Shown here: piece by piece, positions 2,105-26,520 of the stretch
Position numbering within the stretch: position 1 is the stretch's first letter
How the letters are laid out: every line of letters starts with the position of its first letter
Origin: a virus
Virus record (IMG/VR): IMGVR_UViG_3300017767_000086
Coordinates: 1-28,472 of that record
DNA length: 28,472 nucleotides
Strand: one strand, 5' to 3'
Translations under genes and position numbers: made by a program
The notes under the pieces: generated by a model
What the model was told of the DNA's origin: nothing
The model's input: the letters and a program-made list of their open reading frames with translations, nothing else
The model's database searches: none

Positions 2105-3610
2105 TTAGTAATAACTTACTGGTCTACGATACACTGGTTCGTCATCCCAGTCATCCATTGTTGACCTAATCCATCCACCTTGTCGGAATCTTAATAGCGC
2201 CTGCGTGGTAGAGTCAACTAGGTCATCATGGTCGCCCGATGGGAACGAAGCACATTCCTCGATTACTTCGTCTGCCCATCTTGTCGGGGGACACCACACC
2301 ACACCGCTGGCAAACAAATCCGTTACGGCGTTTACCCGTGCAATCTTGTCCTGACCCCTTGAGGGTGTGAACTCCGTTACGGGTATGCCCATAGCGCGTA
2401 GCTCGAATATCAATGGAGAGCCTGAAGCCTTGGCTTCAATAATCATCTGGTCAGGTTCCCACTCCCAGTATTTGTCATAGGCCGCACGCTTCAGTTCTGG
2501 AAACTCCAGCTTCTCTTTGAAGCTATCCAGCAGGATAAGATTGGGAATGGTCTTTCCGTCTTCGTCAGGCCAGTTGAATATTCCCCATGTCGTACACGCA
2601 GAATAGTCAGCGCGTTGTGTTTTCAGAAAAGCCGTATCCCATGACTGGATGATTGCTTCACACTCAGGCAGTTGTGATTGCGTCCATTCCTGCCACCACT
2701 CACGTTTGATAAGTGCGCCTTCTTCCGATGTCGGGTTCTGCTGATACTGTGCGTTCCATTTCGATACTGGCAGTTCAGCTTTTAATGATTCTAATTCTTC
2801 CTGTTTCCAGAATCCGGGCCATAGCGACTTTCCTGATGGAAGAATAGCTGGGAGTTCTATGACTTCCCATTCGCCTGCGCCCTCTTTCTGGATAGAGTTT
2901 TTAATTATCTGTCCTGTCAGGTCGCGCAATGACCAGCGCGTCATCACGATAATGATAGCGCCGCCGGGTTGCAGTCGCTGGCGTGGGCCAGAGGTGTACC
3001 ACTCATAGACCTTGTCGTAGACATCCTTGTTGTATTGACCGACTGCCGCTTCCTGTTCGGAGTGGGGGTCGTCAATAACCAGAACGTCAGCACCCTTACC
3101 CGTGACTGCACCGCCAACACCAATAGCGAAATAGTCTCCGCCCTTGTTTGTGTTCCAGCGTCCTGCCGCCTTGCTGTCAGATGATAGCTCTATGCCCTTG
3201 AAGACTTTCTGGTAGTCGTCATTGCCAATCAGATTTCTGACCTTACGGCCAAACCCGACAGCAAGTTCTGCCGTGTGAGCAGTCTGGATTATTTTTTTTT
3301 CGGGATACTTACCCAAGAACCATGCCGGAAAAAGATAGGATGCAAACTCTGACTTGGTGTGTCGGGGTGGCATGTTGATGATAAGGCGTTTGAGTTCACC
3401 GCTGGCGACACGCTCAAATGCATCAGCCATTATTTCGTGATGGTCGCCCTTGATGAAAGCGGGCCACATGGTTTCAACGAAATCCAGAAAACTTTGCTCT
3501 GCTTTTTCCTGCGTTTTCTTTTCGTTGAGGAGTTCGAGCTTTTTAAGAAGGTCAGCTTTTTCTTCTGGCGGTAGCCTGTTTATTAAATTTTTAATTTTTT
3601 GGGGTTGCAT
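2105..3610 (-). CDS. terL: Terminase large subunit (ATPase and nuclease)
   Basis: A 501-residue DNA-packaging motor that translocates DNA into the prohead and cuts the concatemer. The ATPase half shows an unusual Walker A, PPRHTKSE (about residues 81-88), with Thr where many terminases have Gly. It also has Walker B VLVIDD (176-181) and a coupling motif VMTRW (222-226). The RNase H-like nuclease half has candidate metal ligands Asp325 (IIQSWDTAF), Glu392 (IIEAKASG) and Asp462/Asp463 (GDHDDLVDS). Length is normal for the family. The start has a GGAAG site about 8 bases upstream, inside the end of the preceding 60-aa gene, with a one-base gap between them. This is the most secure call in the window. 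Confidence 0.97.
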   Translation of the reverse strand: MQPQKIKNLINRLPPEEKADLLKKLELLNEKKTQEKAEQSFLDFVETMWPAFIKGDHHEIMADAFERVASGELKRLIINMPPRHTKSEFASYLFPAWFLGKYPEKKIIQTAHTAELAVGFGRKVRNLIGNDDYQKVFKGIELSSDSKAAGRWNTNKGGDYFAIGVGGAVTGKGADVLVIDDPHSEQEAAVGQYNKDVYDKVYEWYTSGPRQRLQPGGAIIIVMTRWSLRDLTGQIIKNSIQKEGAGEWEVIELPAILPSGKSLWPGFWKQEELESLKAELPVSKWNAQYQQNPTSEEGALIKREWWQEWTQSQLPECEAIIQSWDTAFLKTQRADYSACTTWGIFNWPDEDGKTIPNLILLDSFKEKLEFPELKRAAYDKYWEWEPDQMIIEAKASGSPLIFELRAMGIPVTEFTPSRGQDKIARVNAVTDLFASGVVWCPPTRWADEVIEECASFPSGDHDDLVDSTTQALLRFRQGGWIRSTMDDWDDEPVYRRPVSYY

Positions 3611-3611
3611 A

Positions 3612-3794
3612 TCAGTCTTCCACTATCGGCATACAAGCAGAAGCGTATTTAGGCTCAATCATAGCGTTGTGCGCCACTGCTTCTGCGGCACACTCTTCTA
3701 GGCTGGTATGAAATCTTGCGGACACCTCCTCATAATTATGAGGCACGTTCCCTGACGCAATGGAATAAACCACAAAGACCCAAGTGACATTCAT
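3612..3794 (-). CDS. Small unknown protein upstream of terL
   Basis: A 60-residue ORF with a hydrophobic N-terminus (VTWVFVVYSIASG) and two cysteines. The N-terminus could be a short membrane or signal-type segment, but the prediction is weak. Its ATG overlaps the stop of the previous gene (ATGA), and only one base separates its stop from the terL start, so the three genes look translationally coupled. No clear Shine-Dalgarno site is present, consistent with coupling. I do not recognise the family. Confidence 0.6.
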   Translation of the reverse strand: MNVTWVFVVYSIASGNVPHNYEEVSARFHTSLEECAAEAVAHNAMIEPKYASACMPIVED

Positions 3795-4021
3795 TGAGTC
3801 AACACATCCTCATCAAGAAATACCTGAGCAACATCCAGTAGCCAACGCATGCTTGGCCCCTCTGTCATGTTGCTGGCAACGAATAGCTGGCCGTTTTTTG
3901 TCCAGCCAAGAACCACAGCCTGTGAAAGGTTGTCCTGTTCTGCGATGTCCTCAAACATTTCTGAAGCATCACTGGTGCAATCCATTGCTGGTTTCTCTGG
4001 AAACTTAATCACGTTTGACAT
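3791..4021 (-). CDS. Small conserved-type phage protein (MSNVIKFP start)
   Basis: A 76-residue protein. The open frame extends upstream to 4054, but ATG at 4021 is preceded by AAGGAG at ideal spacing and gives the natural N-terminus MSNVIKFPEKP, so I chose it. The core, VVLGWTKNGQLFVASNMTEG followed by a WLLDVAQVFL helix, resembles a recurrent small protein of phages and plasmids of Proteobacteria with no known function (recalled pattern). It is the first gene of the short leader to terL and its stop overlaps the next start by ATGA. A GC-rich hairpin (4042-4073) and a CTAATAA repeat array (4105-4167) lie upstream and probably belong to its control region. Confidence 0.75.
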   Translation of the reverse strand: MSNVIKFPEKPAMDCTSDASEMFEDIAEQDNLSQAVVLGWTKNGQLFVASNMTEGPSMRWLLDVAQVFLDEDVLTQ

Positions 4022-4041
4022 TCCCACTCCTTCCCCAAAAT

Positions 4042-4073
4042 GGGCGGACGCCAAAGAGGTGAAACGCCCGCCC
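4042..4073 (-). promoter_or_regulatory. GC-rich hairpin in the leader of the terL-proximal operon
   Basis: On the minus strand, GGGCGGGCG (4073-4065) pairs with CGTCCGCCC (4050-4042), nine pairs including one G-T, around a 14-base loop. It is followed by a short T-run and then the AAGGAG site of the gene at 4021. This echoes the hairpin-then-ribosome-site layout of the plus-strand operon. It is not a convincing terminator. A role in mRNA stability or translation control is inference. Confidence 0.5.
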
Positions 4074-4104
4074 GCGATGCATGGGAGGTATCGCCAAGCC
4101 CCCT

Positions 4105-4167
4105 CTAATAATTAGTTTCTCTAATAATTAGACTAGGACTAATAAATATATTATACTAATAAATATA
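4105..4167. repeat. Iteron-like array A: four CTAATAA repeats, 16-18 bp period
   Basis: CTAATAA begins at 4105, 4121, 4139 and 4156 (steps of 16, 18 and 17). The first two copies are the near-perfect palindrome CTAAT-A-ATTAG. The last two are CTAATAAATATA. The block is A/T-rich against a mixed background. It starts 84 bp upstream of the start codon at 4021. A second array of the same unit is at 13512-13590. It could be an operator array, a promoter zone or replication iterons. Confidence 0.75.
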
Positions 4168-4201: not shown

Positions 4202-4411
4202 GTGATACATCTAGTTGAAGCGGCGTCAATCATCTGCCAACTGTCAATGCAGGGCGTAACAATGTCCTATATGGACGGCAGGTCTAACGTGTTAGTACGC
4301 AGATGTACCTATCAATGCCAAGATAAAAGCTTCAAGCGTCATCAAATCTACTACGAAGACAGATGCCCGCGCCAAATACGCAAAAACACGCGGTCATTGT
4401 ACTACGGATAG
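4202..4411 (+). CDS. Small Cys-rich protein, copy 1 of a tandem pair
   Basis: A 69-residue ORF starting at GTG 4202, with an in-frame stop just upstream and an AGG-containing stretch (TAGGCTAGGCA) before it. The Cys-containing segment RRCTYQCQDKS and then YYEDRCPRQI align with the next ORF (KQCIFQCQGRS and YEQCPKIL), which is hard to explain unless both are coding. The N-terminal 20 residues are moderately hydrophobic. It lies on the opposite strand to the surrounding packaging genes, like a late-acquired cargo gene. Function unknown. An extracytoplasmic Cys-bonded protein is a guess from the Cys spacing. Confidence 0.55.
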   Translation: MIHLVEAASIICQLSMQGVTMSYMDGRSNVLVRRCTYQCQDKSFKRHQIYYEDRCPRQIRKNTRSLYYG

Positions 4412-4416
4412 CAGTC

Positions 4417-4626
4417 ATGCTCAGTTTTGTTACCGCAACTCTCCTAACATGTAACCTGATAAGCCAAGACATCGTAGATGTAGGGGGGAAGTACACAACC
4501 CTCATAGTGAAACAATGCATCTTTCAGTGCCAAGGCAGGTCTATCGTCTATCAAGACACTGGCAGGTACGAGCAATGCCCCAAAATTCTCTACCATGAAG
4601 GTGGTATCCCAGAGAAAGACCTCTAA
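4417..4626 (+). CDS. Small Cys-rich protein, copy 2, with signal-peptide-like start
   Basis: A 69-residue protein if it starts at ATG 4417. The frame is open from ATG 4363, but that start would overlap copy 1. The 4417 start gives MLSFVTATLLTCNL, a compact hydrophobic segment like a signal peptide or lipoprotein leader, with a weak GGA site upstream. The body carries KQCIFQCQGRS and RYEQCPKILY, matching copy 1. The gene follows copy 1 by 5 bases. Small exported proteins of this kind occur in phages as accessory genes, but I cannot name the family. Absence from relatives, or secretion in the host, would decide what it is. Confidence 0.6.
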   Translation: MLSFVTATLLTCNLISQDIVDVGGKYTTLIVKQCIFQCQGRSIVYQDTGRYEQCPKILYHEGGIPEKDL

Positions 4627-4855: not shown

Positions 4856-4871
4856 AAGTTGGATGCAACTT
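4856..4871. promoter_or_regulatory. AAGTT-N6-AACTT palindrome overlapping the terS stop
   Basis: Exact match to the 16-bp inverted repeat, with inner bases GGATGC. It covers two bases of the terS stop codon and lies 9 bases from the G-quadruplex motif. Confidence 0.6.
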
Positions 4872-5343
4872 AGTCCCCCAGCAGAGCCGCTAGCCTTTTC
4901 TCTAGGTCACGCTCCAATTCTGCCGCCGTCTTGTCCCCATCGTGTTCTATCTCGATGCGCTCCGAAAAAACCCCACAACTTTTTCCTAAGAGTTCGAGCG
5001 CTCGAATGCGTGCGCCGTCTGTCTCCGCCCCCTCGCTTTCTTCTTGAAGCCTTTTCAAGACGTACTCACTTCGCCTAGCCATCTGCGTGCGATGCGATTG
5101 CTCTCTGTCAGCTTGTATGGCCTGAACCCTTGCCATGACCTTGCTATTGCCCGACATGAGACGGCTGGCGGCTTCCCACTGGGTTTTAGCGGAACCATTG
5201 GGCATATAGCCTGCATCACGGTATGCATCCACCAACATCTTGCCGTCTGCCACGCCTTGGCAGAATGCTTCCTGCTTTGCCGTCAATCTATCAGTGTCCT
5301 TCACTACCCTAAGATAGGGCTTCCCCTTGTCCTTATCTGTCAT
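4870..5343 (-). CDS. terS: Terminase small subunit
   Basis: A 157-residue DNA-recognition subunit that binds the packaging start site and loads TerL. The N-terminal region LTAKQEAFCQGVADG (about residues 19-33) followed by AYRDAGY is the typical helix-turn-helix of the Terminase_2 type family. A basic middle part (about 75-90) follows, then RALELLGKSCGVFSERIE, also typical of the family, and an acidic C-terminal helix. It is the first gene of the leftward packaging module, although terL lies over 1.2 kb downstream with two plus-strand genes inserted. The ribosome site is modest (GGGGCAG about 4 bases before ATG). Confidence 0.88.
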   Translation of the reverse strand: MTDKDKGKPYLRVVKDTDRLTAKQEAFCQGVADGKMLVDAYRDAGYMPNGSAKTQWEAASRLMSGNSKVMARVQAIQADREQSHRTQMARRSEYVLKRLQEESEGAETDGARIRALELLGKSCGVFSERIEIEHDGDKTAAELERDLEKRLAALLGD

Positions 5344-11657: not shown

Positions 11658-13427
11658 TTAGAACGGATAATTTGTGTTGTAACTTCGGTCGGACGATTGC
11701 GACAAGAAAGGGTCGTATGTTTTCTCAGAGTAGGTGGACGTAGTTTTATCATAACGTAAGTCAGTCCGACCCTGTCTGCCGACCCAGCTAAACCTGCACT
11801 TCCAAACTATCACACTTGATATATCGCTTTCAGGGTCATTTCGGTGAACAGTCAACCCGACATCGGCCTTTGCATAGAACGCCGCCGAACCAGAAATATC
11901 ATGGCCTGTCGGCACTGGTATGGTTCCATCAGCCAGTCGCTTCATCTTTGCTGGGTGTGCCACGAACCAGATGTGTACGTCATGTGCTTGTGCAAACACG
12001 CGCAACTTGGTCAGCATCTCGCTAACCCAGTCAGTCTCAGACATGGAGCGGTCACGTTCGATGTAATTATAAGGGTCAATCACTGCGCCCCGAATACCAT
12101 AACGCAACACCGCCGCTTTGATGCGCGAGATGATGTGGTCGATAGTGCATAACGAACCATCAGCCTGATACACAAAACAGAAATTGTTAGATATAAATTT
12201 TTTGGCATCATCCAATTCATCGTGCGTCATGCGTGGCGTTACCCCGTCAAAGAAAGGCTTGCGTAGGTACTTACTTGCTAGCTTGCTTATGTGAAGGCTC
12301 GGCTCGTTCTCAAACGAGCATATCGCAAACTTCCAGTCCCTGCTCTCAGCTAGGTTAACCATAAGCTGGTCGATGAACTCCGACTTACCCGATGAGGGTA
12401 TGCCAGTGACAACCGTTAGCTGTCCCTCGCGGATAGTGTACAACTCGTCCACATTTTTGTAGCCAGTCGTTTCACCCTGCCCCAGCCCGTGAGCGTATAT
12501 CTCATCAACGTGCTGGAAAAAATGGTCGGGGTCATACAGACCAGAGATTGGGAGCGGCTTTGCGCCTTCAACCAGTCCGACGACCCCGTCAATCCCGTGT
12601 TCACACAGGACATCGTTTGCATCCTTACAGTCTTCTGGGTAGCTAACGACAAAGACCTTGTCTTTTCCCAGTCGCCTAGACAACTCTTCGGCAGTCGCTT
12701 CACCCGCTGGGTCTGCATCACAGGCAATTACAATGCGGTCTAGCCCCTCGATTACTTCCTTGTTGTCCCACAGATACTGAAACTTTTTATCATCAGTCGG
12801 GTCAACCTTGCCATCGACTACCTTGTTCACTGCCCCATTGGGTATGGAGACACTTGCAATACCTGCTTCAGCGAATGCAAGGCAATCCATTTCGCCTTCA
12901 CAGATAACGAGCGTGTCGCCTTCAAACTTGTGCATACCAAAAAAGTTTTTGGGACTGCCCACGCAAGCAAAGTTTTTACTTTCAATACTGCGTATCTTAT
13001 AGGCGGTGGGGAATTTGTCAGAAAAGTTAGGGAAAGCTAGACAGTCCTGCGTAGCCCCGGCCCCCGGTAGGAAATGTCGTATGGCCTGAACTCCAAACTT
13101 TTCTGCTGTCTCTCTGCCAATCTTCCTCAATTCAAGCCACTCAACTGCCGCATCGTCCAATGGTTTTAATAGCAACTCAGGTGATTTGGATTTGGCTGGC
13201 TCAAATGGCGATGGCTTTAGGTGCTTCTCGACTGTGAACGCACCGTCCACCCCACAATGCCAACACTTGTAACGTACATCGTTGTCGAGTATCTCGACTG
13301 ACATTGACCTGTCTTTGTTTTTCTTTCGCTGACCACTGCAATGTGGGCATACTATTCTGTGTTGACCAACCCGCAGACCCTTAACGGCTTGCATAACTGG
13401 CTCTTGTTCGCTTGAATTATCTGTCAT
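11658..13427 (-). CDS. Bifunctional DNA primase-helicase (T7 gp4 / Twinkle type)
   Basis: A 589-residue replication protein. It has an N-terminal zinc finger (Cys27, Cys30, Cys55, Cys58), a TOPRIM primase domain (EGE at 177-179 with Asp181, then DAD at 237-239), and a C-terminal RecA-fold helicase with Walker A GIPSSGKS (342-349), Glu373 in SFENE and Walker B VID (449-451). It would prime lagging-strand synthesis and unwind the fork as a ring. I chose ATG 13427 because GGGAG lies 8 bases upstream and it gives MTDNSSEQEP. The open frame reaches 13484. It is separated from the upstream RusA gene pair by a repeat array. No DNA polymerase gene is in the window. Confidence 0.95.
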   Translation of the reverse strand: MTDNSSEQEPVMQAVKGLRVGQHRIVCPHCSGQRKKNKDRSMSVEILDNDVRYKCWHCGVDGAFTVEKHLKPSPFEPAKSKSPELLLKPLDDAAVEWLELRKIGRETAEKFGVQAIRHFLPGAGATQDCLAFPNFSDKFPTAYKIRSIESKNFACVGSPKNFFGMHKFEGDTLVICEGEMDCLAFAEAGIASVSIPNGAVNKVVDGKVDPTDDKKFQYLWDNKEVIEGLDRIVIACDADPAGEATAEELSRRLGKDKVFVVSYPEDCKDANDVLCEHGIDGVVGLVEGAKPLPISGLYDPDHFFQHVDEIYAHGLGQGETTGYKNVDELYTIREGQLTVVTGIPSSGKSEFIDQLMVNLAESRDWKFAICSFENEPSLHISKLASKYLRKPFFDGVTPRMTHDELDDAKKFISNNFCFVYQADGSLCTIDHIISRIKAAVLRYGIRGAVIDPYNYIERDRSMSETDWVSEMLTKLRVFAQAHDVHIWFVAHPAKMKRLADGTIPVPTGHDISGSAAFYAKADVGLTVHRNDPESDISSVIVWKCRFSWVGRQGRTDLRYDKTTSTYSEKTYDPFLSQSSDRSYNTNYPF

Positions 13428-13492
13428 GTTAAACGCTCCCATGCTCAACACGACCAGTGTATTTCGATTTGGGGCGAGGGTCAAAAAAAGAA

Positions 13493-13508
13493 AAGTTATG
13501 GGTAACTT
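13493..13508. promoter_or_regulatory. Exact AAGTT-N6-AACTT palindrome next to iteron array B
   Basis: AAGTT-ATGGGT-AACTT lies 66 bp upstream of the primase-helicase start and four bases from the first CTAATAA repeat, as expected for two control elements sharing one regulatory region. Confidence 0.6.
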
Positions 13509-13511
13509 ATT

Positions 13512-13590
13512 CTAATAATTCTATGTGCTAATAATTAGTTTTATTAATAATTATTATTTATTCTAATAAATATAATTATAACTAATAATA
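13512..13590. repeat. Iteron-like array B: five CTAATAA-type repeats
   Basis: Units begin at 13512, 13528, 13544 (first base T), 13563 and 13582, with steps of 16, 16, 19 and 19. The 13528 copy is the palindrome CTAATAATTAG and the 13563 copy is CTAATAAATATA, both identical to copies in array A. The array starts 85 bp upstream of the primase-helicase ATG. It lies in a 166-bp spacer with no gene. Confidence 0.78.
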
Positions 13591-13593
13591 ATA

Positions 13594-13860
13594 CTACTGG
13601 GGGGCAGTCAAGTTATTTCTGTACTCTTCCATTTTTTTTCTGACGCTGGTCGGCTCAAGCTGTGCGAGGGAACAAACCAACTCAAAGTCTTCGCTGTCCA
13701 TCCAGTCAATGACCTCTGTTCTTTTTCTTACGTCTGGTTTATTCAGGTCGTAGATAGACTGGGCAATCACTGCTCTCCACAGCCTGCACTCTGATAACTG
13801 TTCGGGGGTTCTCTCTGTCCAGCCCCCACCATATATGCTTTTCTTTGACTTGCCTGTCAT
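13594..13860 (-). CDS. Small phage protein overlapping rusA, possible DNA-binding helical protein
   Basis: An 88-residue basic protein. Residues 12-37 (GGWTERTPEQLSECRLWRAVIAQ) and the tail DFELVCSLAQLEPTSVRKKM resemble a recurrent phage protein in which an RLW-AV helix and a VC-LAGL-P--VR helix are the conserved parts (recalled). The tail reads like a helix-turn-helix. Start ATG 13860 has AAGGTG about 9 bases upstream. The first 122 bases overlap the 3' end of rusA in another frame, far more than usual, and both readings look genuinely coding. No function is proven. Confidence 0.75.
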   Translation of the reverse strand: MTGKSKKSIYGGGWTERTPEQLSECRLWRAVIAQSIYDLNKPDVRKRTEVIDWMDSEDFELVCSLAQLEPTSVRKKMEEYRNNLTAPQ

Positions 13861-14134
13861 TTTTGTACACCTTCCCCTGCATCGCGTCCAAGATAACGCT
13901 TTCGTCTAGGTCTGGTCGGCGGCTCGCGTAATAGATAATCATATCCACACGGACATCTGCCTCTATCTCCTCATCTAAATTGGGACACTGTTCACCAAAT
14001 AATTTTAGATACTTAATAGCTTTATCTGATTTGATGAACGCTGGCCTGCCTTTTATTGTGACCAGCCTTCTAGAGTTTGCTTTGCTCGCAGGCTCCCCAT
14101 AAATCGTGAAAGTTATATGAAACTTTTTATCCAT
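13739..14134 (-). CDS. rusA: RusA-family Holliday junction resolvase
   Basis: A 131-residue nuclease that resolves four-way junctions during phage recombination and before packaging. The family core is visible: PASKANSRR (about residues 15-23), then RRPDLDES with Asp75 and Asp77, ILDAMQGKVYKND with Asp83 and Asp93, and a closing KEKHIWWG. E. coli RusA uses three Asp in equivalent places. Here the usual DD of the third motif is ND. ATG 14134 is chosen (AGGTG about 8 bases upstream), and the longer open frame to 14296 would run across the divergent plus-strand gene. It is the first gene of a leftward operon with the 88-aa protein and the primase-helicase. Confidence 0.9.
   Translation of the reverse strand: MDKKFHITFTIYGEPASKANSRRLVTIKGRPAFIKSDKAIKYLKLFGEQCPNLDEEIEADVRVDMIIYYASRRPDLDESVILDAMQGKVYKNDRQVKEKHIWWGLDRENPRTVIRVQAVESSDCPVYLRPE
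14110..14125. promoter_or_regulatory. Exact AAGTT-N6-AACTT palindrome at the rusA start
   Basis: AAGTT-ATATGA-AACTT with an A/T flank (CTTTTTAT) lies over codons 4-8 of rusA, immediately downstream of the divergent promoter region. A bound protein here could block leftward transcription. Confidence 0.6.
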
Positions 14135-14482: not shown

Positions 14483-14636
14483 AAGAGAAAAGACACCGTC
14501 TGCTTTGCAGGACACCGTGCGCTTTGTAAACATCGAAGGCACAGTACACGTTATTGATTTAGACAAAGAGGTTAGCGTTGAAGCGTACCGTAAGAAGATT
14601 ATGGACGACCCAGTGATAGACGAGATGGGTGAATGA
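14475..14636 (+). CDS. Tiny unknown protein coupled to the PD-(D/E)XK gene
   Basis: A 53-residue acidic ORF. Its ATG overlaps the previous gene by 8 bases, and its stop overlaps the next start as ATGA, the usual sign of translational coupling. It has a beta-like middle (VRFVNIEGTVHVIDLD) and an acidic tail. Function unknown. Confidence 0.62.
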   Translation: MDKREKTPSALQDTVRFVNIEGTVHVIDLDKEVSVEAYRKKIMDDPVIDEMGE

Positions 14637-15511
14637 AGTTAACCAACAGACACAATCTGCCGGAGCCTTTTCTAGATTTTATCCGTAACGATAAATACTC
14701 GAAGGGGTCTGCGGATATAAGCGTTACACAGCTTATCGACAGCCCCCGTGTTCGCTTGCTTAATACCATCGGCAAAGACGAGATAGAAATGGATGCGGTT
14801 GACCGCGTCTGGCCCTTGTTCGGCACGGCAGTCCACCACATTTTGGAAACATCAAATCAAACTGATGGGGTTATTAAGGAAGAGCGATTGGATATGGTTA
14901 TACGCGGCTGGGTTTTGTCGGGTGCGGTAGACTATCAATATCATTACGTTCAGGCTGGCCCCAAAGTAGATATCATTGACTACAAAGTTACCAGCGCATG
15001 GTCGGTCATGCTGGGCAAGGAAGACTGGGAGCGGCAGTTAAACTGCTACGCACACCTGATTGAGAGCCAATGCCCCAGCAAGGTAAACAAGCTACAGATA
15101 TGCGCGATACTCAGAGACTGGCAACGCAAGAAAGCAGAGACTGACCCCTCATATCCACAAGCACCAGTAGCGATGGTAGATGTGCCTATCTGGGCTTACG
15201 ACCAGCGCGTTATGTATTTAAACGAGCGCATGACACTGCATCAAGATGCACAGCAAGCATGGGACACGAACCAAGAGTTGCCGCTGTGTAGCACAGAAGA
15301 AATGTGGGAGAAGCCCGACACCTTTGCTGTCAAAAAGGCCAAACAGAAACGAGCATTGCGCGTGCTGAACTCATTTGAAAAAGCACAACACTATATCTCA
15401 GACCAGCCCAACCCCTCTGGACTGAGCATTGAAACTAGAACGGGCGCACGGACGAGGTGCGAGGGAAATTATTGCAATGTCGCAGACATATGCAAGCGCA
15501 TGGGAGCGTAA
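14633..15511 (+). CDS. PD-(D/E)XK exonuclease (RecB/Cas4-like), possible Fe-S cluster
   Basis: A 292-residue nuclease of the restriction-endonuclease fold. Seen in order: AVHHILE with the conserved His (68/69), GAVDY with Asp100, DIIDYK with Asp116 and Lys118, then RQLNCYAHL, the Gln/Tyr helix of RecB-like nucleases (about 134-142). Cys219, Cys276, Cys281 and Cys287 have the one-plus-three pattern of Cas4/AddB-type iron-sulfur nucleases, so a 4Fe-4S cluster is plausible but unproven. It is followed within 300 bases by a putative annealing protein, matching the exonuclease-annealase pairs of phage recombination systems. Confidence 0.85.
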   Translation: MKLTNRHNLPEPFLDFIRNDKYSKGSADISVTQLIDSPRVRLLNTIGKDEIEMDAVDRVWPLFGTAVHHILETSNQTDGVIKEERLDMVIRGWVLSGAVDYQYHYVQAGPKVDIIDYKVTSAWSVMLGKEDWERQLNCYAHLIESQCPSKVNKLQICAILRDWQRKKAETDPSYPQAPVAMVDVPIWAYDQRVMYLNERMTLHQDAQQAWDTNQELPLCSTEEMWEKPDTFAVKKAKQKRALRVLNSFEKAQHYISDQPNPSGLSIETRTGARTRCEGNYCNVADICKRMGA

Positions 15512-17499: not shown

Positions 17500-17922
17500 A
17501 TGAGCGAATATAGAGAAGCCGCACTGTCCTTTGAGGCAGTTAAGATTGGGATGACGCAGAACAGGGAAGGAATAATACTGCGCCTTGCTGTTCACCCACA
17601 AGAATGTCCACCGAAGTTACACACTGACTTTGTCGGACAGCGTTATGGTGTGGCGCTAGTTGCATTGGCGGATGACGAGACACCGAAACACGCGCCAGAA
17701 CTTGAGGAAATCAGGAAGCTAAAGGCAAGCGCAGGCGCGCTATGTCGTGATACGGACTTTCAGGTTTTCCTTGGGGCCGAGTCGGAAGACTCTGCAACGA
17801 CCATATTGCGAACTAAATTAGGCGTGCAATCCCGCAGTGAGTTTGATGACAATGCAGACGCAAGAGTTAGGTTTGTTAACCTAAGAGAGGAGTTTCAAGC
17901 ATGGCTGAAGAAGAAAAAGTAA
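17500..17922 (+). CDS. Unknown conserved-type phage protein
   Basis: A 140-residue soluble protein. The N-terminal beta-rich half (LSFEAVKIGMTQNREGIILRLAVHPQECP, cited by its ends, about 9-37) is followed by FVGQRYGVALVALADDETP. In memory the phrase VHP-x(3)-P-x(8)-G-x-RY-x(2)-ALV recurs in phage hypothetical proteins near recombination genes. The C-terminal half is helical and charged. GAGG lies before ATG 17500, and its end overlaps the HTH gene by 22 bases. Function unknown. Confidence 0.72.
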   Translation: MSEYREAALSFEAVKIGMTQNREGIILRLAVHPQECPPKLHTDFVGQRYGVALVALADDETPKHAPELEEIRKLKASAGALCRDTDFQVFLGAESEDSATTILRTKLGVQSRSEFDDNADARVRFVNLREEFQAWLKKKK

Positions 17923-18137
17923 TCCCTGAGAAAGAACAGAACGAATTTATAACGCTGTTGGAAGCAACACAAATTCTAGGGGTGACCAGAAAAACTATTT
18001 ACAATCTGATGCAAGAGGATGAGAGCTTTCCAAAACCTTTTTCTTTGGCAATTACAGTCAGTGCGCGAGGTCGCCGGAACTATCGTTTTGATAGAGGGGA
18101 GTTGGTCGAATGGGTCAAGACAAGACGAGTGAAGTAA
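17901..18137 (+). CDS. AlpA/excisionase-type helix-turn-helix protein
   Basis: A 78-residue DNA-binding protein. Residues 18-38 (TLLEATQILGVTRKTIYNLMQ by position) form the winged helix-turn-helix of the AlpA/MerR-like class, and residues 55-74 (GRRNYRFDRGELVEWVKTR) give the typical wing and closing helix. Such proteins act as excisionases or transcription regulators. No integrase gene is present, so a regulator is the better guess. It is the only clear sequence-specific regulator in the window and so a candidate for the repeated operator-like sites, though AlpA proteins do not usually need perfect palindromes. GAGGAG precedes the ATG. Confidence 0.82.
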   Translation: MAEEEKVIPEKEQNEFITLLEATQILGVTRKTIYNLMQEDESFPKPFSLAITVSARGRRNYRFDRGELVEWVKTRRVK

Positions 18138-19824: not shown

Positions 19825-22800
19825 TTACCTATACAATTCTGACACAACCATGTTGCCGCGCTGTGTTGCACGTTGCAGTTGCTCGTCTATCTTGTCGAGC
19901 ATCTTTCGTTTGGTGACATCAGGGATGCGGGGGTTCTTGGCTATCTGTGCTTTCTTTCTTATCAATCTGTTTCTCGCATTGTTGGTAGCTTTCATACGAC
20001 CAAGAAGTTTTAGCTCTTTTTGATATTGAGAGCGTATATATTCTATTCTGTTTTTATCCTTGCGGGTGATGGCATCTTTTAAATCTGCCTCTATCTGTAG
20101 TATCTGGTCACGCCCCTCAATAAATCTGGTCGTATCTTCTCTGGTGCTAATTGAGCCTATGAGTTTACGAGTGAAGGGGATTTGTCTTAGCCCCTCTTCA
20201 CTAAACAGCGAGGCAGGGTCATCTACGGTATTAAACGCAAAGCGCCCAGACCGTTCAACAAATCGCCCAACGCCACCCGTTAAGAACCCATACCAGTATT
20301 CCATTACGTCAGGTGACCAATCAATAAGACCCGACTTGGCTGGTGAGCCGCCCGTTGCAGTGTTCAGGAAATCGGCAGTGTTCTTAAATACTGGAGATGT
20401 TGTTGACCAATAAAGCTGACTGTCTGGTTTTTGTATTCCAAATGGGGAGCCTTCTTTGTAAACAGGCTTGTTTGCGAAGTCTTTGTTTTCATAAAGGTCA
20501 ACGAATGGGTCGGTAACAGTGGGAGATAAAAAGTTTCCTAGGCTTTCAGTGCCGCCAATCGGATTGACTGCGTCAACAAATGTGCCAAAGAAGGAGTTGG
20601 TGAACTGACCATTTGTGTATCCGCCACGACCTCTTCTTGAAAGACTGCGCCCCATGTTTACAGCAAAGTTGAGGCCGTATGGCATCGGTATACTTAAATA
20701 CTCTCTGCCCCCCAGACCGTTAAGTTTAATAACAAAGTTATGTTCGAGTACATGGTCTGGTATTTTGTCTACCATTTTCTGGCCGTCTTCATCATCTTCA
20801 GACATAAGCGCCAAGAGTTGGTCTTGCAAGAACCCGGCGACGACAGCGCCCATCCATATAGCCCGAACTTTTTTGCTTCTAACAGCGGCAGACATTAGCG
20901 CAAAACTACCTTGGATAGATGCGTTATAGAAAAGATACAAAGAGTTCATAAGAACTTTTTGGTCACCGCCCTTGGAAAAGTTAACTGTAACATTTCGTGC
21001 GGCCTGACCAGCCCTCGCCCGCGTAAAGCCCTTCTCCCGCAATGTCTTGTAGGTCGCAACGCGGATGGCGTTTTCTATAACATTGTTGTAATTTTCAACC
21101 AGCTTGGCAAGCGGAGTATCTGTTAATCTGTTAACACCTTTCTTGAATTGACTGACCAGCTTTGGGTCATCAGCCGTACCCAATATCTCGTCCATGTTGC
21201 CTAGCTTTTGTTCTAGGCTGTCAATCATGTTGAGCGCACTCTGCCCGCCATCTTCTAGGAACTCTTGATACACCTGAGATAGCTCGTTTGTTTCTCCCGC
21301 TCTTATGATGCCGCGTAATTTTATCACGGTTGAAGGCAACTCTTTAAGAACTGCCTTGGTTATGCCTGCTATCTCAGTAGCATTTATGTTTGTTAGGCCA
21401 GTTGAAATATCTCGCAAGAAGTTAGTTACAAAGAACTCAGGGTTATAACTTGTATTAATACTGGACAGATACCTGTTAACAGAAGTCATTGCCTTTACAA
21501 GGAACATTGAATTATCTGGCCCCAAGCCAGTCGCGCCTTTGAGTGCTTTGGCAATGCGAGGGTCAAGCACATTTATTTGCACTTCTTCGCCATTGACCTT
21601 GACAGTCATTATGCTGGGGTCGTTTTTATCAATGCTACTTACTGTTTTAACGTAGCCATTCTTGCTTAGAACTCTTCGGGTCTTTACCTTCTGCTCAACA
21701 TTAGCAACACCCTCTACAACACTTCTGTAATCCTCGCCCCTCTCTACGGAAACTGACTCACCCTCATCCAAGATGTTGTCTATTCTGGACAACAAGTCTT
21801 GCCTTTCGGCCTCACTTATTCTGGCGTTGCCCTGTATTTCTTGTGCTAATTCTTCACGGGTTTTGGTAACTTCTGATACTGACCCAAAGTCTTCGACTGT
21901 CTTTGTGGTGCTAACTGCCTCAGTCTTGTCTATCATTTTAAGAAATGTCTGACCTACCAAGTTGCGCTGTCCACGGTCTATTGCTCTTTCGTGCTGATTA
22001 AATAAAGAAGCAATAAGATTATCTGGGTAGCTACCACGGCCCAAGGCCGCTATGTATTCTTTACCTTTCGCCCCGTACTTATTGGCAGTCTTTCTTCTTA
22101 TTTCTGCAACCTCTGCCTCAGTCTTGTCTGGGTCAATTTCCAAAAAGCCCTTGAGCGGTACATAATTTTGATACTGCGGGTAAGGCACCCGTGTTTGCGT
22201 GCCTTCATATGTAAGCTCTTGTTTTCTGTCTGGCTCAAGACCAGTTTCAATGTTCATCTTTCTTGTAGCTTCTACAACATCCTGAACGTCTTTTGATATT
22301 TGCTCTAGCTGGGCGCGGGCGTTTTCATCTGCGCCAACTATATTGAGTATCGCGTCAGCCTCTGCGTCTGTCATGCCCGAACCGCTATCGTTCCGTTCAT
22401 CTATCTGACGTATGTATGCGTTTCTTTCTTTTGCATGCATGGCAAACAAGTATGCTTCTGCTAGCGCAAGCTCTGGTTTCCTGCCTATTTGAATTAGACT
22501 TGCATAAAATCCCTTGCCATCTTTGCCCTGTATCGCTTCAAGAGATGCTTGCAACGCGGGATTTACAGGCAGGGATTTAATCCTTTCCAGTATGGGGGTA
22601 AACAATATGTCCCGCGCTCTGCCAAGCATGTACCCTGTCTTGTTGTGGTACTGTTCTTCCATGAGATAGGTGTCAAACATCTCTGGAACTTCAAAGCCAG
22701 CCTTGCGTATCTCATCTATAAACTGTCCAACAGGCAAAAAGGCGTCTTGTAATTTAGTTATTAAGTTATCTGTAACTTCTTTGGCGTCAATGTCTCCGAA

Positions 22801-25800
22801 CAGACCTGTTGAGGCTATGGCTTTAATCGGAACGCCTAGCACCTTCGACATAAACTCCGCGTTTTTGCCATACAGATACACGCCCTTTGCATTGTCCACT
22901 TGTGTTGTGGCTTCTGGGCTTGCCGTAACTGTTGGATGTGTGGGGAGCAGGCTGTATTTATCTCCCGGCTTGAATTTGTTTTCGACTTTGCCCGTTTCTA
23001 TAGCCTCGGTTATCATATCTTGTGTGCCGATGGCGCGGCCAAGATTGTTTCGAGCTTGGTTGTAGGCCATAGGCATAGTTGTGGTGATAAAGTTAACTTT
23101 GCTCGCCAGTATTTCTGGGTCTGATACCACAAGTTTAGGAGTGGCATTAACTATATCTTCGACTTCGTTTATAAATGCTCGGCGCATTATTGTACGCATG
23201 ACCAAGTTCTTATTGAGGCCGTTGTTGCCGAACCAGTACAACTCAGTGGTAAAGGATTCAGTTGGATAGACTGGGCTTCTGGCCCTAACCTTTTGCGTAA
23301 CCTGTATTACACCGTTTATTTTCTTTAATTTGATTTCATTTATCGTGCGCTCATTTCCGCGTTGCAAGACGGGGATGCGGATTGGAACACCCCCTTGCTG
23401 GTCTAGCTGGCGCATCATTGCATCCATTGCGTCCTTTGCGCTGGGATAACTACTGCCTTTTACATAAGCCGCATCTTTGCCTCCGCCCTCTATATGAGCA
23501 AGGCCGTGGTTCGTGCCACTTTCTTCTCCGTTGATAATATGCCTGCCGTTTGTAAGGGCAATCACCTTGGCGACCCCATCCCTATCTACAAACTGACCAA
23601 ATATAGGTGTGCCTACGCTGTTAGGTATTAGTTCAAACTCACTACGCACGACACTGTATTTAATTTCTCCACCATCTTGTGGAATTTGTCGTGCTGGCAT
23701 GGCCTCTAAAAAGTCTTCTGCCGTTTCTATATTTATTTCTGTGTCAACAGCGCCCTCTTCTGTCGCCTGTACAATGCCTGCGTCTTCCTCTGGGGATTCC
23801 CCAGTGACTATCTCGCGCGCGGCTTCCATTGCGCTTTCTTTCACAGCTTCTGTGACTGGCAGGGCGGCACCCAACTCTCTTATTCTTGCTCTATTTTCTG
23901 CGCTTGCTATTTCACCGCTTTCGATGCTGGCAAATATATCGTCGGGACTTGCAAAGCCCGTGTCCCTGAACCCGCTCATAACAGCTTTGAAAAAATCAAT
24001 TATTCTGTCGAACAATGTTTTGGTTGTACCCACAACCTTTAGCTGACCGCCCGCATACATGCGGAACATCTCTGCAATAGCCTCTTCTACTATTGTCGCC
24101 TCATCTCTGCCTCTATACATATCTGCGGCGCGGTCATAGAACGTGTATTCGCGTAACTCTGTTGAGCCATCGCTGTTTACTTTTACAAACTTTCTGGTCT
24201 TGGCGGCTTTTGTAAGTGTCGCCCACTCCTGTTGTGTAAACAAACCTATGTCAAATAGCGCATGCAGTAGTTCATGGTTTGCCACGCCCATGACGGTGGC
24301 CTCAAACTCTTGAGGGTCTGCGTCTAAGCCATGCATTGCCGTTGCTAGTGTAATAATTTTTTCGCTTGGGTTATATGAGCCTTGTGCCAAAAAGCCTTTT
24401 GGCCCATCTAGTTTTGCCACAACCTCCACCGCCTCAAGGTCTTGGTCTATGCCTATTTCTTTTATTCTTTTCTTAACAGCAGTCTCTACCTCTTGCCGCG
24501 CGTTCTCAAACTTTGTTGTTACCCTGATTGCTTCATCACGCTTAGTTCTCGCGGCATTTTGGGCATCGGTATTTAGCTGTGGCCCCTGCTTCGACCTAGC
24601 CGTTTTGCGCCTTGCTCTTTGAGCCTTGAGTATTTTTGCCAATCTATCTAATTCAGACTGACCTTCCGCTACACGCGAGCGGGCATCCTCTATTTCAGAT
24701 ATGGCTTTCTTGTATTTCTCTGGCTGGCTCTGCTCAAACTTTGCAATCTTGTTTTCTTCTTTTGCTATTTGCCTTTCTGCCGCCTCAACAGAGGTTTGTA
24801 ACTCAGAAACCCTTTGCTCAAGCTCTCGTAGTGGCCGAGCTTTTGTTTCTGCATCGGCAGTCGCGGCGTATTTGTTTCTTTTATATTCTTCTATTACCCC
24901 GTCTGCGACCATTCTCTTTCTGATGGCAACAGCGCCAGCACGATTAACTTTGCTGACCTTCATAATGTCCTGAACACTTACGTTGGCGTTTTCTACAACC
25001 TCGCCTTCGTTATTTCTGGTTTGTGCAATAGATAGGCGTACAGCCTTTTCATACTGCGACCATCTAAATCCATCAGGTTTTTCAAAGTATGTCTCTGGTG
25101 CGCCGTCTAGGGTTCCCCTGAATGTTAGGGGCTTTTGTTGCCTTGCAATGCGGTTTGCGGCTGTCTTTCCCAGAATCTCTTGTACTTCTGGTAGCTCGAT
25201 ATCTCTACCGGGTTCCGGGTCACCACGTTCTTTTCGCGTATCCCGAACTTTTTTCTGCTCATTCTTTTTTAAATGCGCGATTTTTACAGGAGAAAAGTTG
25301 GTTGCAACTTCCTCCTTAATGCCAGAAATAACTGAAGCCCTGCTTTCAGGTGGTATGTTTTCATCATTAAAAGGTATGGACTGCTGTTCAATAACACCAA
25401 TCTGTGGGTCATCAATTTCCTCAAGGTTTGTGGCCCTGTTTGATTGTAGGTCATATTCCTCTTGCTGTGCTATCTTGGCCGCAGTCGGAACCTTGTCTTC
25501 TTTTTGGTCTTGCTTTAGCTGTGTCTGCGCTACCGTGTCTTCCTTGTCACGTTTAACGGAGTCAATCGTTCCGCGCACCGTGCCGCCAACAATACCAGCG
25601 GCAACGCCCACCTCAAGATATTCTTTGTACGCTTCTTCACTATCAATAGGTTTGCCAGCCTGAATGCGGGTAAGAATTGTTTGCCCTATTTCGGTTGGCA
25701 TTTCAGCTATCGCACCTTTAAATGCACCTGCCCCCGCCCTTTTTGCAATCTCTTTCTTGATGCTCTCGCCAGCAACGCCTGATATGTTTTTTGCCCCAAC

Positions 25801-26520
25801 AAAGGCCTTTTTAGTCAGAAGGGGTTTGGCTATCTTGCCGCCCAAGCCAAGAACTATCCTGTCACCAAGGGTGTCCAAGAATGTTGCGGGCAGTGCAAAC
25901 AGCGCCGCCGCCCCATCATCAACGTGAGGCAGTATTCCTTCCGCCACACTTTGGTCTTGCTCAAGTAGATTTTCACCAAATAAAACAGGATAGTTTAGGG
26001 CCGCGCCTGCGCTTGCACTAAGAATAGTTGCGCCAGTGCCAGCCAGCCCCAACGCAGGAGCCGCAACAGCCGCCGCTCCCGCGCCAACAGCAGTAGGCAC
26101 CAAGGTTGCAATGCCTTGTCCTAGCGTTTCTCCAACATAAGTGAGGCCAGAGCTAATGCCCGAAACATCTTCAAGGCGTGTGGCGTATTGCGCTACGTCC
26201 TGTAGCTCTGCCTCGTTGTGGGCGACAACCTCTTCACCATATTCTTCAAGACCCTTGAAGCCTATGTTTTCTCCGACAGACTGGAGCGCCCTGCCAAACA
26301 TCATTTGCGTTTGGTCTACGCCCATGCTCAAGCCCCTGCCAAAAGCGGTTCCCGGCGGGTTGGTTACCTCTTCTATCTCTTGTTCTGATATTTGCAGAAT
26401 ATCGCCCCGTTGGGCGACAAGGTTCTTGAATTTTTCTAGCTCTTGCGCCGTGGGTGTATTACCAGCAATCTGCGCTTGATATACCTGTCCACTTTTACCT
26501 AATCGAAGTATCTGACCCAT
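19825..26520 (-). CDS. Giant polyvalent virion-associated protein (2231 aa)
   Basis: A very long protein, probably packaged and perhaps injected with the DNA. Seen in order: a hydrophobic Ala/Gly-rich stretch (about 137-180); a winged-helix-like segment, VQDIMKVSKVNRAGAVAIRK (about 510-535), similar in style to the FtsK gamma domain; a coiled coil (about 560-640); a zincin-type HELLH (749-753); a segment with NHGLAHIEGGG (about 1004-1014) like MuF/toxin-type domains; and NPEFFVTNFLRD (about 1690-1702) with a long helical C-terminus, resembling LPD38-type polyvalent domains. Domain calls beyond HExxH and coiled coil are tentative. It is the last gene of the minus-strand structural module. Its ribosome site is weak and lies 7 bases after the upstream stop. 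Confidence 0.85.
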   Translation of the reverse strand: MGQILRLGKSGQVYQAQIAGNTPTAQELEKFKNLVAQRGDILQISEQEIEEVTNPPGTAFGRGLSMGVDQTQMMFGRALQSVGENIGFKGLEEYGEEVVAHNEAELQDVAQYATRLEDVSGISSGLTYVGETLGQGIATLVPTAVGAGAAAVAAPALGLAGTGATILSASAGAALNYPVLFGENLLEQDQSVAEGILPHVDDGAAALFALPATFLDTLGDRIVLGLGGKIAKPLLTKKAFVGAKNISGVAGESIKKEIAKRAGAGAFKGAIAEMPTEIGQTILTRIQAGKPIDSEEAYKEYLEVGVAAGIVGGTVRGTIDSVKRDKEDTVAQTQLKQDQKEDKVPTAAKIAQQEEYDLQSNRATNLEEIDDPQIGVIEQQSIPFNDENIPPESRASVISGIKEEVATNFSPVKIAHLKKNEQKKVRDTRKERGDPEPGRDIELPEVQEILGKTAANRIARQQKPLTFRGTLDGAPETYFEKPDGFRWSQYEKAVRLSIAQTRNNEGEVVENANVSVQDIMKVSKVNRAGAVAIRKRMVADGVIEEYKRNKYAATADAETKARPLRELEQRVSELQTSVEAAERQIAKEENKIAKFEQSQPEKYKKAISEIEDARSRVAEGQSELDRLAKILKAQRARRKTARSKQGPQLNTDAQNAARTKRDEAIRVTTKFENARQEVETAVKKRIKEIGIDQDLEAVEVVAKLDGPKGFLAQGSYNPSEKIITLATAMHGLDADPQEFEATVMGVANHELLHALFDIGLFTQQEWATLTKAAKTRKFVKVNSDGSTELREYTFYDRAADMYRGRDEATIVEEAIAEMFRMYAGGQLKVVGTTKTLFDRIIDFFKAVMSGFRDTGFASPDDIFASIESGEIASAENRARIRELGAALPVTEAVKESAMEAAREIVTGESPEEDAGIVQATEEGAVDTEINIETAEDFLEAMPARQIPQDGGEIKYSVVRSEFELIPNSVGTPIFGQFVDRDGVAKVIALTNGRHIINGEESGTNHGLAHIEGGGKDAAYVKGSSYPSAKDAMDAMMRQLDQQGGVPIRIPVLQRGNERTINEIKLKKINGVIQVTQKVRARSPVYPTESFTTELYWFGNNGLNKNLVMRTIMRRAFINEVEDIVNATPKLVVSDPEILASKVNFITTTMPMAYNQARNNLGRAIGTQDMITEAIETGKVENKFKPGDKYSLLPTHPTVTASPEATTQVDNAKGVYLYGKNAEFMSKVLGVPIKAIASTGLFGDIDAKEVTDNLITKLQDAFLPVGQFIDEIRKAGFEVPEMFDTYLMEEQYHNKTGYMLGRARDILFTPILERIKSLPVNPALQASLEAIQGKDGKGFYASLIQIGRKPELALAEAYLFAMHAKERNAYIRQIDERNDSGSGMTDAEADAILNIVGADENARAQLEQISKDVQDVVEATRKMNIETGLEPDRKQELTYEGTQTRVPYPQYQNYVPLKGFLEIDPDKTEAEVAEIRRKTANKYGAKGKEYIAALGRGSYPDNLIASLFNQHERAIDRGQRNLVGQTFLKMIDKTEAVSTTKTVEDFGSVSEVTKTREELAQEIQGNARISEAERQDLLSRIDNILDEGESVSVERGEDYRSVVEGVANVEQKVKTRRVLSKNGYVKTVSSIDKNDPSIMTVKVNGEEVQINVLDPRIAKALKGATGLGPDNSMFLVKAMTSVNRYLSSINTSYNPEFFVTNFLRDISTGLTNINATEIAGITKAVLKELPSTVIKLRGIIRAGETNELSQVYQEFLEDGGQSALNMIDSLEQKLGNMDEILGTADDPKLVSQFKKGVNRLTDTPLAKLVENYNNVIENAIRVATYKTLREKGFTRARAGQAARNVTVNFSKGGDQKVLMNSLYLFYNASIQGSFALMSAAVRSKKVRAIWMGAVVAGFLQDQLLALMSEDDEDGQKMVDKIPDHVLEHNFVIKLNGLGGREYLSIPMPYGLNFAVNMGRSLSRRGRGGYTNGQFTNSFFGTFVDAVNPIGGTESLGNFLSPTVTDPFVDLYENKDFANKPVYKEGSPFGIQKPDSQLYWSTTSPVFKNTADFLNTATGGSPAKSGLIDWSPDVMEYWYGFLTGGVGRFVERSGRFAFNTVDDPASLFSEEGLRQIPFTRKLIGSISTREDTTRFIEGRDQILQIEADLKDAITRKDKNRIEYIRSQYQKELKLLGRMKATNNARNRLIRKKAQIAKNPRIPDVTKRKMLDKIDEQLQRATQRGNMVVSELYR
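20942..20957. promoter_or_regulatory. Near-exact palindrome inside the giant gene
   Basis: GAGTT-CATAAG-AACTT with a TTTTT flank: one half-site mismatch to the repeated palindrome. Its coding location makes chance more likely than for the spacer copies. Confidence 0.3.
22763..22778. promoter_or_regulatory. Exact AAGTT-N6-AACTT palindrome inside the giant gene
   Basis: AAGTT-ATCTGT-AACTT, about 3.7 kb into the 6.7-kb gene. It is too far from any start to be a classical promoter operator. Confidence 0.45.
25295..25310. promoter_or_regulatory. Exact AAGTT-N6-AACTT palindrome inside the giant gene
   Basis: AAGTT-GGTTGC-AACTT, about 1.2 kb after the start of the giant gene. Its right inner half, TTGCAACTT, also appears in the cassette 4 copy as ATGCAACTT. 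Confidence 0.45.

Follow-up and report, generated by a model that had tools for sequence, protein, structure and literature searches.

Matched AT-rich repeat arrays beside the primase-helicase and terminase genes are candidate paired replication origins in an uncultured phage family

The satellite phage P4 carries two separate cis sites, ori1 and crr, with the same iterons, both bound by its alpha protein, and in the operator/stoperator systems of temperate phages lineage-specific palindromic sites co-diverge with their regulator. The replication origins oriL and oriR of Bacillus phage SPP1 consist of direct repeats with an AT-rich unwinding element, lie 12-13 kb apart and are served by one initiator, gp38 (PMC6316719, PMC3485210). 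SPP1 uses the host replisome and encodes an exonuclease, an annealing protein and a Holliday resolvase, as well as a separate helicase loader and DnaB-type helicase; its oriL lies inside the initiator gene, and forks are proposed to stall at its second bound origin, which would then initiate concatemer synthesis (PMC6316719, PMC3485210).

The window analysed here (the whole stretch of 28,472 nucleotides) is a virus contig with two repeat arrays. Array B (site B, 13512-13591, no strand) is intergenic, located between orfX (13594-13860, minus strand; 88 aa) and the primase-helicase (11658-13427, minus strand; zinc motif, Toprim, DnaB-like helicase), with the order on the minus strand being a RusA-type Holliday junction resolvase (13739-14134), orfX, array B, a sigma70-like promoter (TTGACC-17-TACACT, 13456-13484) and the primase. 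Array A (site A, 4105-4165, no strand) occupies the gap between the terminase small subunit TerS (4870-5343, minus strand) and a small gene (phrog_11040, 3791-4021, minus strand) that precedes the terminase large subunit TerL (2105-3610, minus strand), which opens the late operon. Five CTAATAATTA-type units make up array B (about 87-90% AT), starting at 13512, 13528, 13544, 13563 and 13582; the unit at 13528 is an exact CTAATAATTA(G), the unit at 13563 an exact CTAATAAATA, and the remaining three are one base off CTAATAATTA. The four units of array A represent the same two sub-types, CTAATAATTA (4105 and 4121) and CTAATAAATA (4139 and 4156). The first-pass annotation had described five units in steps of 16, 16, 19 and 19 beside the primase-helicase, exact copies of both array A sub-types among them, and distances to the ATG of 85 bp for array B and 84 bp for array A; each of these was borne out in the window (distances from 13512 to 13427 and from 4105 to 4021).

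TRF called array B at 13507-13593. Between 13500 and 13600 we counted five matches at one mismatch or fewer. The 2000 local dinucleotide shuffles gave 0.26 on average and three at most, and none reached the density of array B (0/2000). At two mismatches the motif count over the whole window was 36 compared with 23.6 expected, only a modest excess; the motif is nearly all A/T, and the case therefore rests on clustering and comparison rather than on whole-window counts.

A primase search of IMG/VR found 80 relatives, and 21 longer contigs were fetched for comparison (genomes and lineages are given G and L numbers). The phage family is uncultured and mostly marine, and the fetched contigs share a common gene order wherever they cover it. 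Synechococcus phage MinM2 and Planktothrix phage Pag-Yong1 are cultured relatives; MinM2 resembles the family in its genes for primase-helicase, AlpA, VWA, MoxR and TerL, and no comparable AT-rich repeat array was found in its primase upstream region. HTVC023P and HTVC027P have a different replication module, and our literature search found no description of these sites.

The arrays resemble the SPP1 origins in being two distant sites with similar repeats (9.3-12.3 kb apart across the genomes) and in having, by computed stability, an AT-rich unwinding element at both A and B, with site A of G012 as the exception. The gene content is also similar, with a PD-(D/E)XK exonuclease of a recombination module (14633-15511, plus strand) and the RusA resolvase encoded in the window; a Sak annealing protein was encoded in G004, and none was recognised in the window. 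Unlike SPP1 oriL, array B does not lie within an initiator gene, the primase and helicase are fused and no gp38 or loader was recognised, and A and B are usually inverted, with a motif that changes between lineages. The likeness to P4 lies in two separate cis sites with the same repeats and presumably one replication protein, although the primase-helicase here is of the Toprim/DnaB type, and no additional DNA-binding domain was seen in it. Lineage-specific palindromic boxes recall the operator/stoperator systems, but here they form just two clustered sites.

In most lineages both positions, A between TerS and TerL and B upstream of the primase-helicase, bear repeat arrays whose sequence varies by lineage, yet the A and B motifs match within one genome (nine lineages). 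The motif was TAATTATTAG in G000-G002, AGTACATA in G004, G017 and G018 (also at B of G006), ATCTCTCTCT/AGAGAGAGAT in G005, ATATTTATAAATAT with AGAAGTTTATA in G009, G010 and G021, ACTAGTCTAGTA in G012, CTATCTCTAATAG in G019 and TATATTATATATAGG in G003. Many of the boxes are palindromic, and inverted boxes often flank a TATTATATATTATATA-like core. Site B was missing in lineages G013, G014 and L072, so at most A could be essential in those. An AT-rich patch was still seen at site A in L155 (G034), G013 and G014, which have no primase-upstream gap; in G013 and G014 this patch has TAGTCTAGACTACT palindromes, and in G014 it is located after a promoter-like site.

The matching of A and B was assessed in several ways. 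In an unbiased 8-mer scan that covered whole contigs and was blind to site A, the window sharing most with site B was the TerS-TerL gap in 10 of the 12 contigs holding both sites. The exceptions were G003, whose near-pure AT array did not pass the G/C filter, and G012, for which the core of B had been misplaced; A and B of both do match in the 8-mer permutation test, and those of G012 also by recurrent k-mers. Across seven lineages, shared 8-mers numbered 92 on the diagonal versus 2.9 per off-diagonal pair, the best of 5040 permutations. With two lineages added for the alignment test (L154/L040 and L152/L054), giving nine in all, the true A/B pairing had the top alignment score of 362,880 permutations, for lineages that were grouped by eye before testing and include two related pairs (G004/G023 and G009/G024), so that they are not wholly independent. 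Each A/B pair also beat its own shuffles (p<=0.003-0.007). Alignment lengths were about 55-105 bp for most lineages, with 26 bp for G003, and the orientation was mostly inverted but direct in G000 and G003; only clusters A and B stood out per genome among recurrent k-mers. Because the motif changes across lineages yet stays matched at both sites, a trans-acting factor common to both arrays is strongly supported by these comparisons.

Duplex stability computed by the nearest-neighbour method set the same two sites apart. In 11 of the 12 genomes with both, A and B took the two lowest stability ranks among all 80-bp windows of the contig. The test is partly circular, since site A was found partly by its AT-richness, but this circularity does not extend to the genome-wide rank or to the 8-mer scan. 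In the window itself array B ranked least and array A second least stable. The exception was G012, where B ranked first and A fell outside the five least stable windows. B also ranked least stable in four contigs without A, and A did so in G013 and G014, both of which lack the gap upstream of the primase.

From sequence comparison, we interpret A and B as paired initiator-bound replication origins that would work like SPP1 oriL/oriR, with a probability of about 0.55. The two sites, their matched motif, its co-divergence, the lowest duplex stability and the position are all seen in the sequence. Each site would consist of a very AT-rich core that unwinds easily and of clustered boxes, often with dyad symmetry, to which one phage-specific protein binds, and we infer that a single protein binds both A and B. 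At one site, probably B beside the primase-helicase, the bound protein would open the core and load the primase-helicase together with the host polymerase, the latter because none of the genes examined was recognised as coding for a phage polymerase. The other site, beside TerL at a distance of about 10 kb, would either be a second origin or block forks and so bring about the switch to concatemer synthesis, the role suggested for SPP1 oriR. In addition to the binding protein, we infer initiation itself, its direction and this division of labour between A and B. An origin had been one of two suggestions in the first-pass annotation and is the better-supported half, favoured by the lowest stability, the adjoining primase-helicase and the likeness to oriL/oriR, although GC skew, one of the checks it had proposed, gave no origin signal. 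The skew merely follows gene strand, and we rejected it as an origin test because of this confounding.

The main rival to origins is that A and B are paired operators of a phage regulator, at which a repressor or activator would couple control of the primase operon (B) to that of the late TerL operon (A), a reading we consider less likely. Fast repressor-operator turnover, as in immunity systems, would explain the lineage-specific motifs, the palindromic form of many boxes is that expected for dimeric regulators, and A precedes a long late operon. B in turn is directly followed by a conserved sigma70-like promoter: with a loose pattern, 67 of 75 loci had a promoter-like site after the AT patch, often near-consensus TTGACA-17-TATCGT, and in lineages without the B gap the promoter region of the primase is absent too. 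With a promoter next to B in nearly every case, B could be explained by regulation alone. At A the fit is poorer, as no sigma70-like promoter was found on its TerL side in the window and its distance to the gene varies. The gaps at A and B were 98/83 in G017, 81/55 in G005, 201/66 in G009 and 83/87 in G002, and the equal spacing of about 84/85 bp, previously offered as an argument for a shared site, therefore fails among the relatives. The other earlier suggestion, a shared promoter or activator, thus keeps its conserved promoter after B but loses both the matching distances and a counterpart at A. Nothing requires an operator to be the least stable part of a genome either, and the low stability of A and B is more in line with DNA unwinding elements than with plain operators. 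Moreover, a second, dispersed set of palindromes already resembles an operator system and fits the operator/stoperator kind better than the arrays do. This set comprises nine exact copies of AAGTT-N6-AACTT in the window (16 bp each, at 4856, 8190, 9380, 13493, 14110, 17136, 18155, 22763 and 25295) versus 0.1 expected, with 8 in G001 and 13 in G002; the copy at 13493-13508 (no strand) lies between array B and the -35 box. The counterparts are AAGTTCAATTGAACTT in G005 and AAGTTAAAGTTAACTT in G012, and the whole looks like a separate lineage-specific operator/stoperator set.

Other readings of the arrays appear improbable. The location of A between TerS and TerL, seen in all lineages that cover both, would suit packaging or concatemer-processing (pac/cos-like) sites bound by TerS, but the same boxes recur at B, about 10 kb away at the primase, and the TerS N-terminal region differs strongly between G021 and G010 while array A is nearly identical, a difference that also led us to reject TerS as the binder. 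We likewise give little credence to A and B as recombination sites, mostly in inverted orientation, through which the intervening 10 kb would be flipped or amplified and which homogenisation by recombination would keep alike. The A-B alignments of 60-105 bp, inverted in most lineages, and the inverted boxes flanking the AT core are what such sites might show, yet the relative orientation of primase and TerL was identical in every contig with both genes, and segment inversion was rejected for want of any orientation variant among them; A and B are also only partly identical, and no shared recombinase was noticed among the conserved genes examined. Chance likeness of AT-rich intergenic DNA with no common function is the least credible of these explanations and very improbable: low-complexity AT sequence does inflate similarity, and the off-diagonal scores were not zero, but the dinucleotide-shuffle and permutation controls contradict it, and array A is kept in the close relative G002 although the non-coding flanks diverge.

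Several proteins were considered as the common binder of A and B. An AlpA/HTH_17 DNA-binding protein (17901-18137, plus strand) is an uncertain candidate, encoded in 20 of 22 contigs (window counted) and absent from the distant G015 and from G018, a contig that ends before the region; its recognition helices differ between genomes with the same arrays (G020/G021 versus G009/G010; G013 versus G014). We rejected g5834, which shows 51% identity between G018 and G004 despite near-identical arrays; its predicted structure is helical and gave no significant hit in the PDB. orfX was a weak candidate and was also set aside, the gene being absent in G003, G005, G008 and G016; its model has a confident four-helix core with no significant PDB match, and its relatives are only uncharacterised phage proteins. 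The primase-helicase was rejected as no variable DNA-binding insert was seen. A host factor may instead be the common binder.

If A and B are origins, they provide candidate replication origins for an uncultured phage family, and the nine co-diverged site pairs would be a natural set for finding and studying the initiator. For most environmental phages, to our knowledge, it is not known where replication starts, and the co-divergence of paired low-stability arrays could be a generally usable way to locate them. We also propose, tentatively, that initiator and boxes turn over together between lineages as a private origin 'password' at two fixed positions, which if true may set compatibility between co-infecting relatives.

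Some further features of the window were observed. Tandem hairpins with C/T-rich loops (4024-4100, minus strand) lie between array A and the next gene. The loops are of the CCTCCC/TCTCCC type, with equivalents in several lineages (G002, G004, G019, L154) and lineage-specific stem sequences; the folding z-score was -5.7 in G004, the hairpins of the window folded no better than shuffles, and an Rfam search of the site A hairpins gave nothing above threshold. Beside array A are two small adjacent open reading frames (4202-4411 and 4363-4626, plus strand) with similar C-x-x-Q-C-Q stretches, apparently paralogues. A protein of 2231 residues is encoded at 19825-26520 (minus strand), with homologues of up to about 3000 residues in the relatives.
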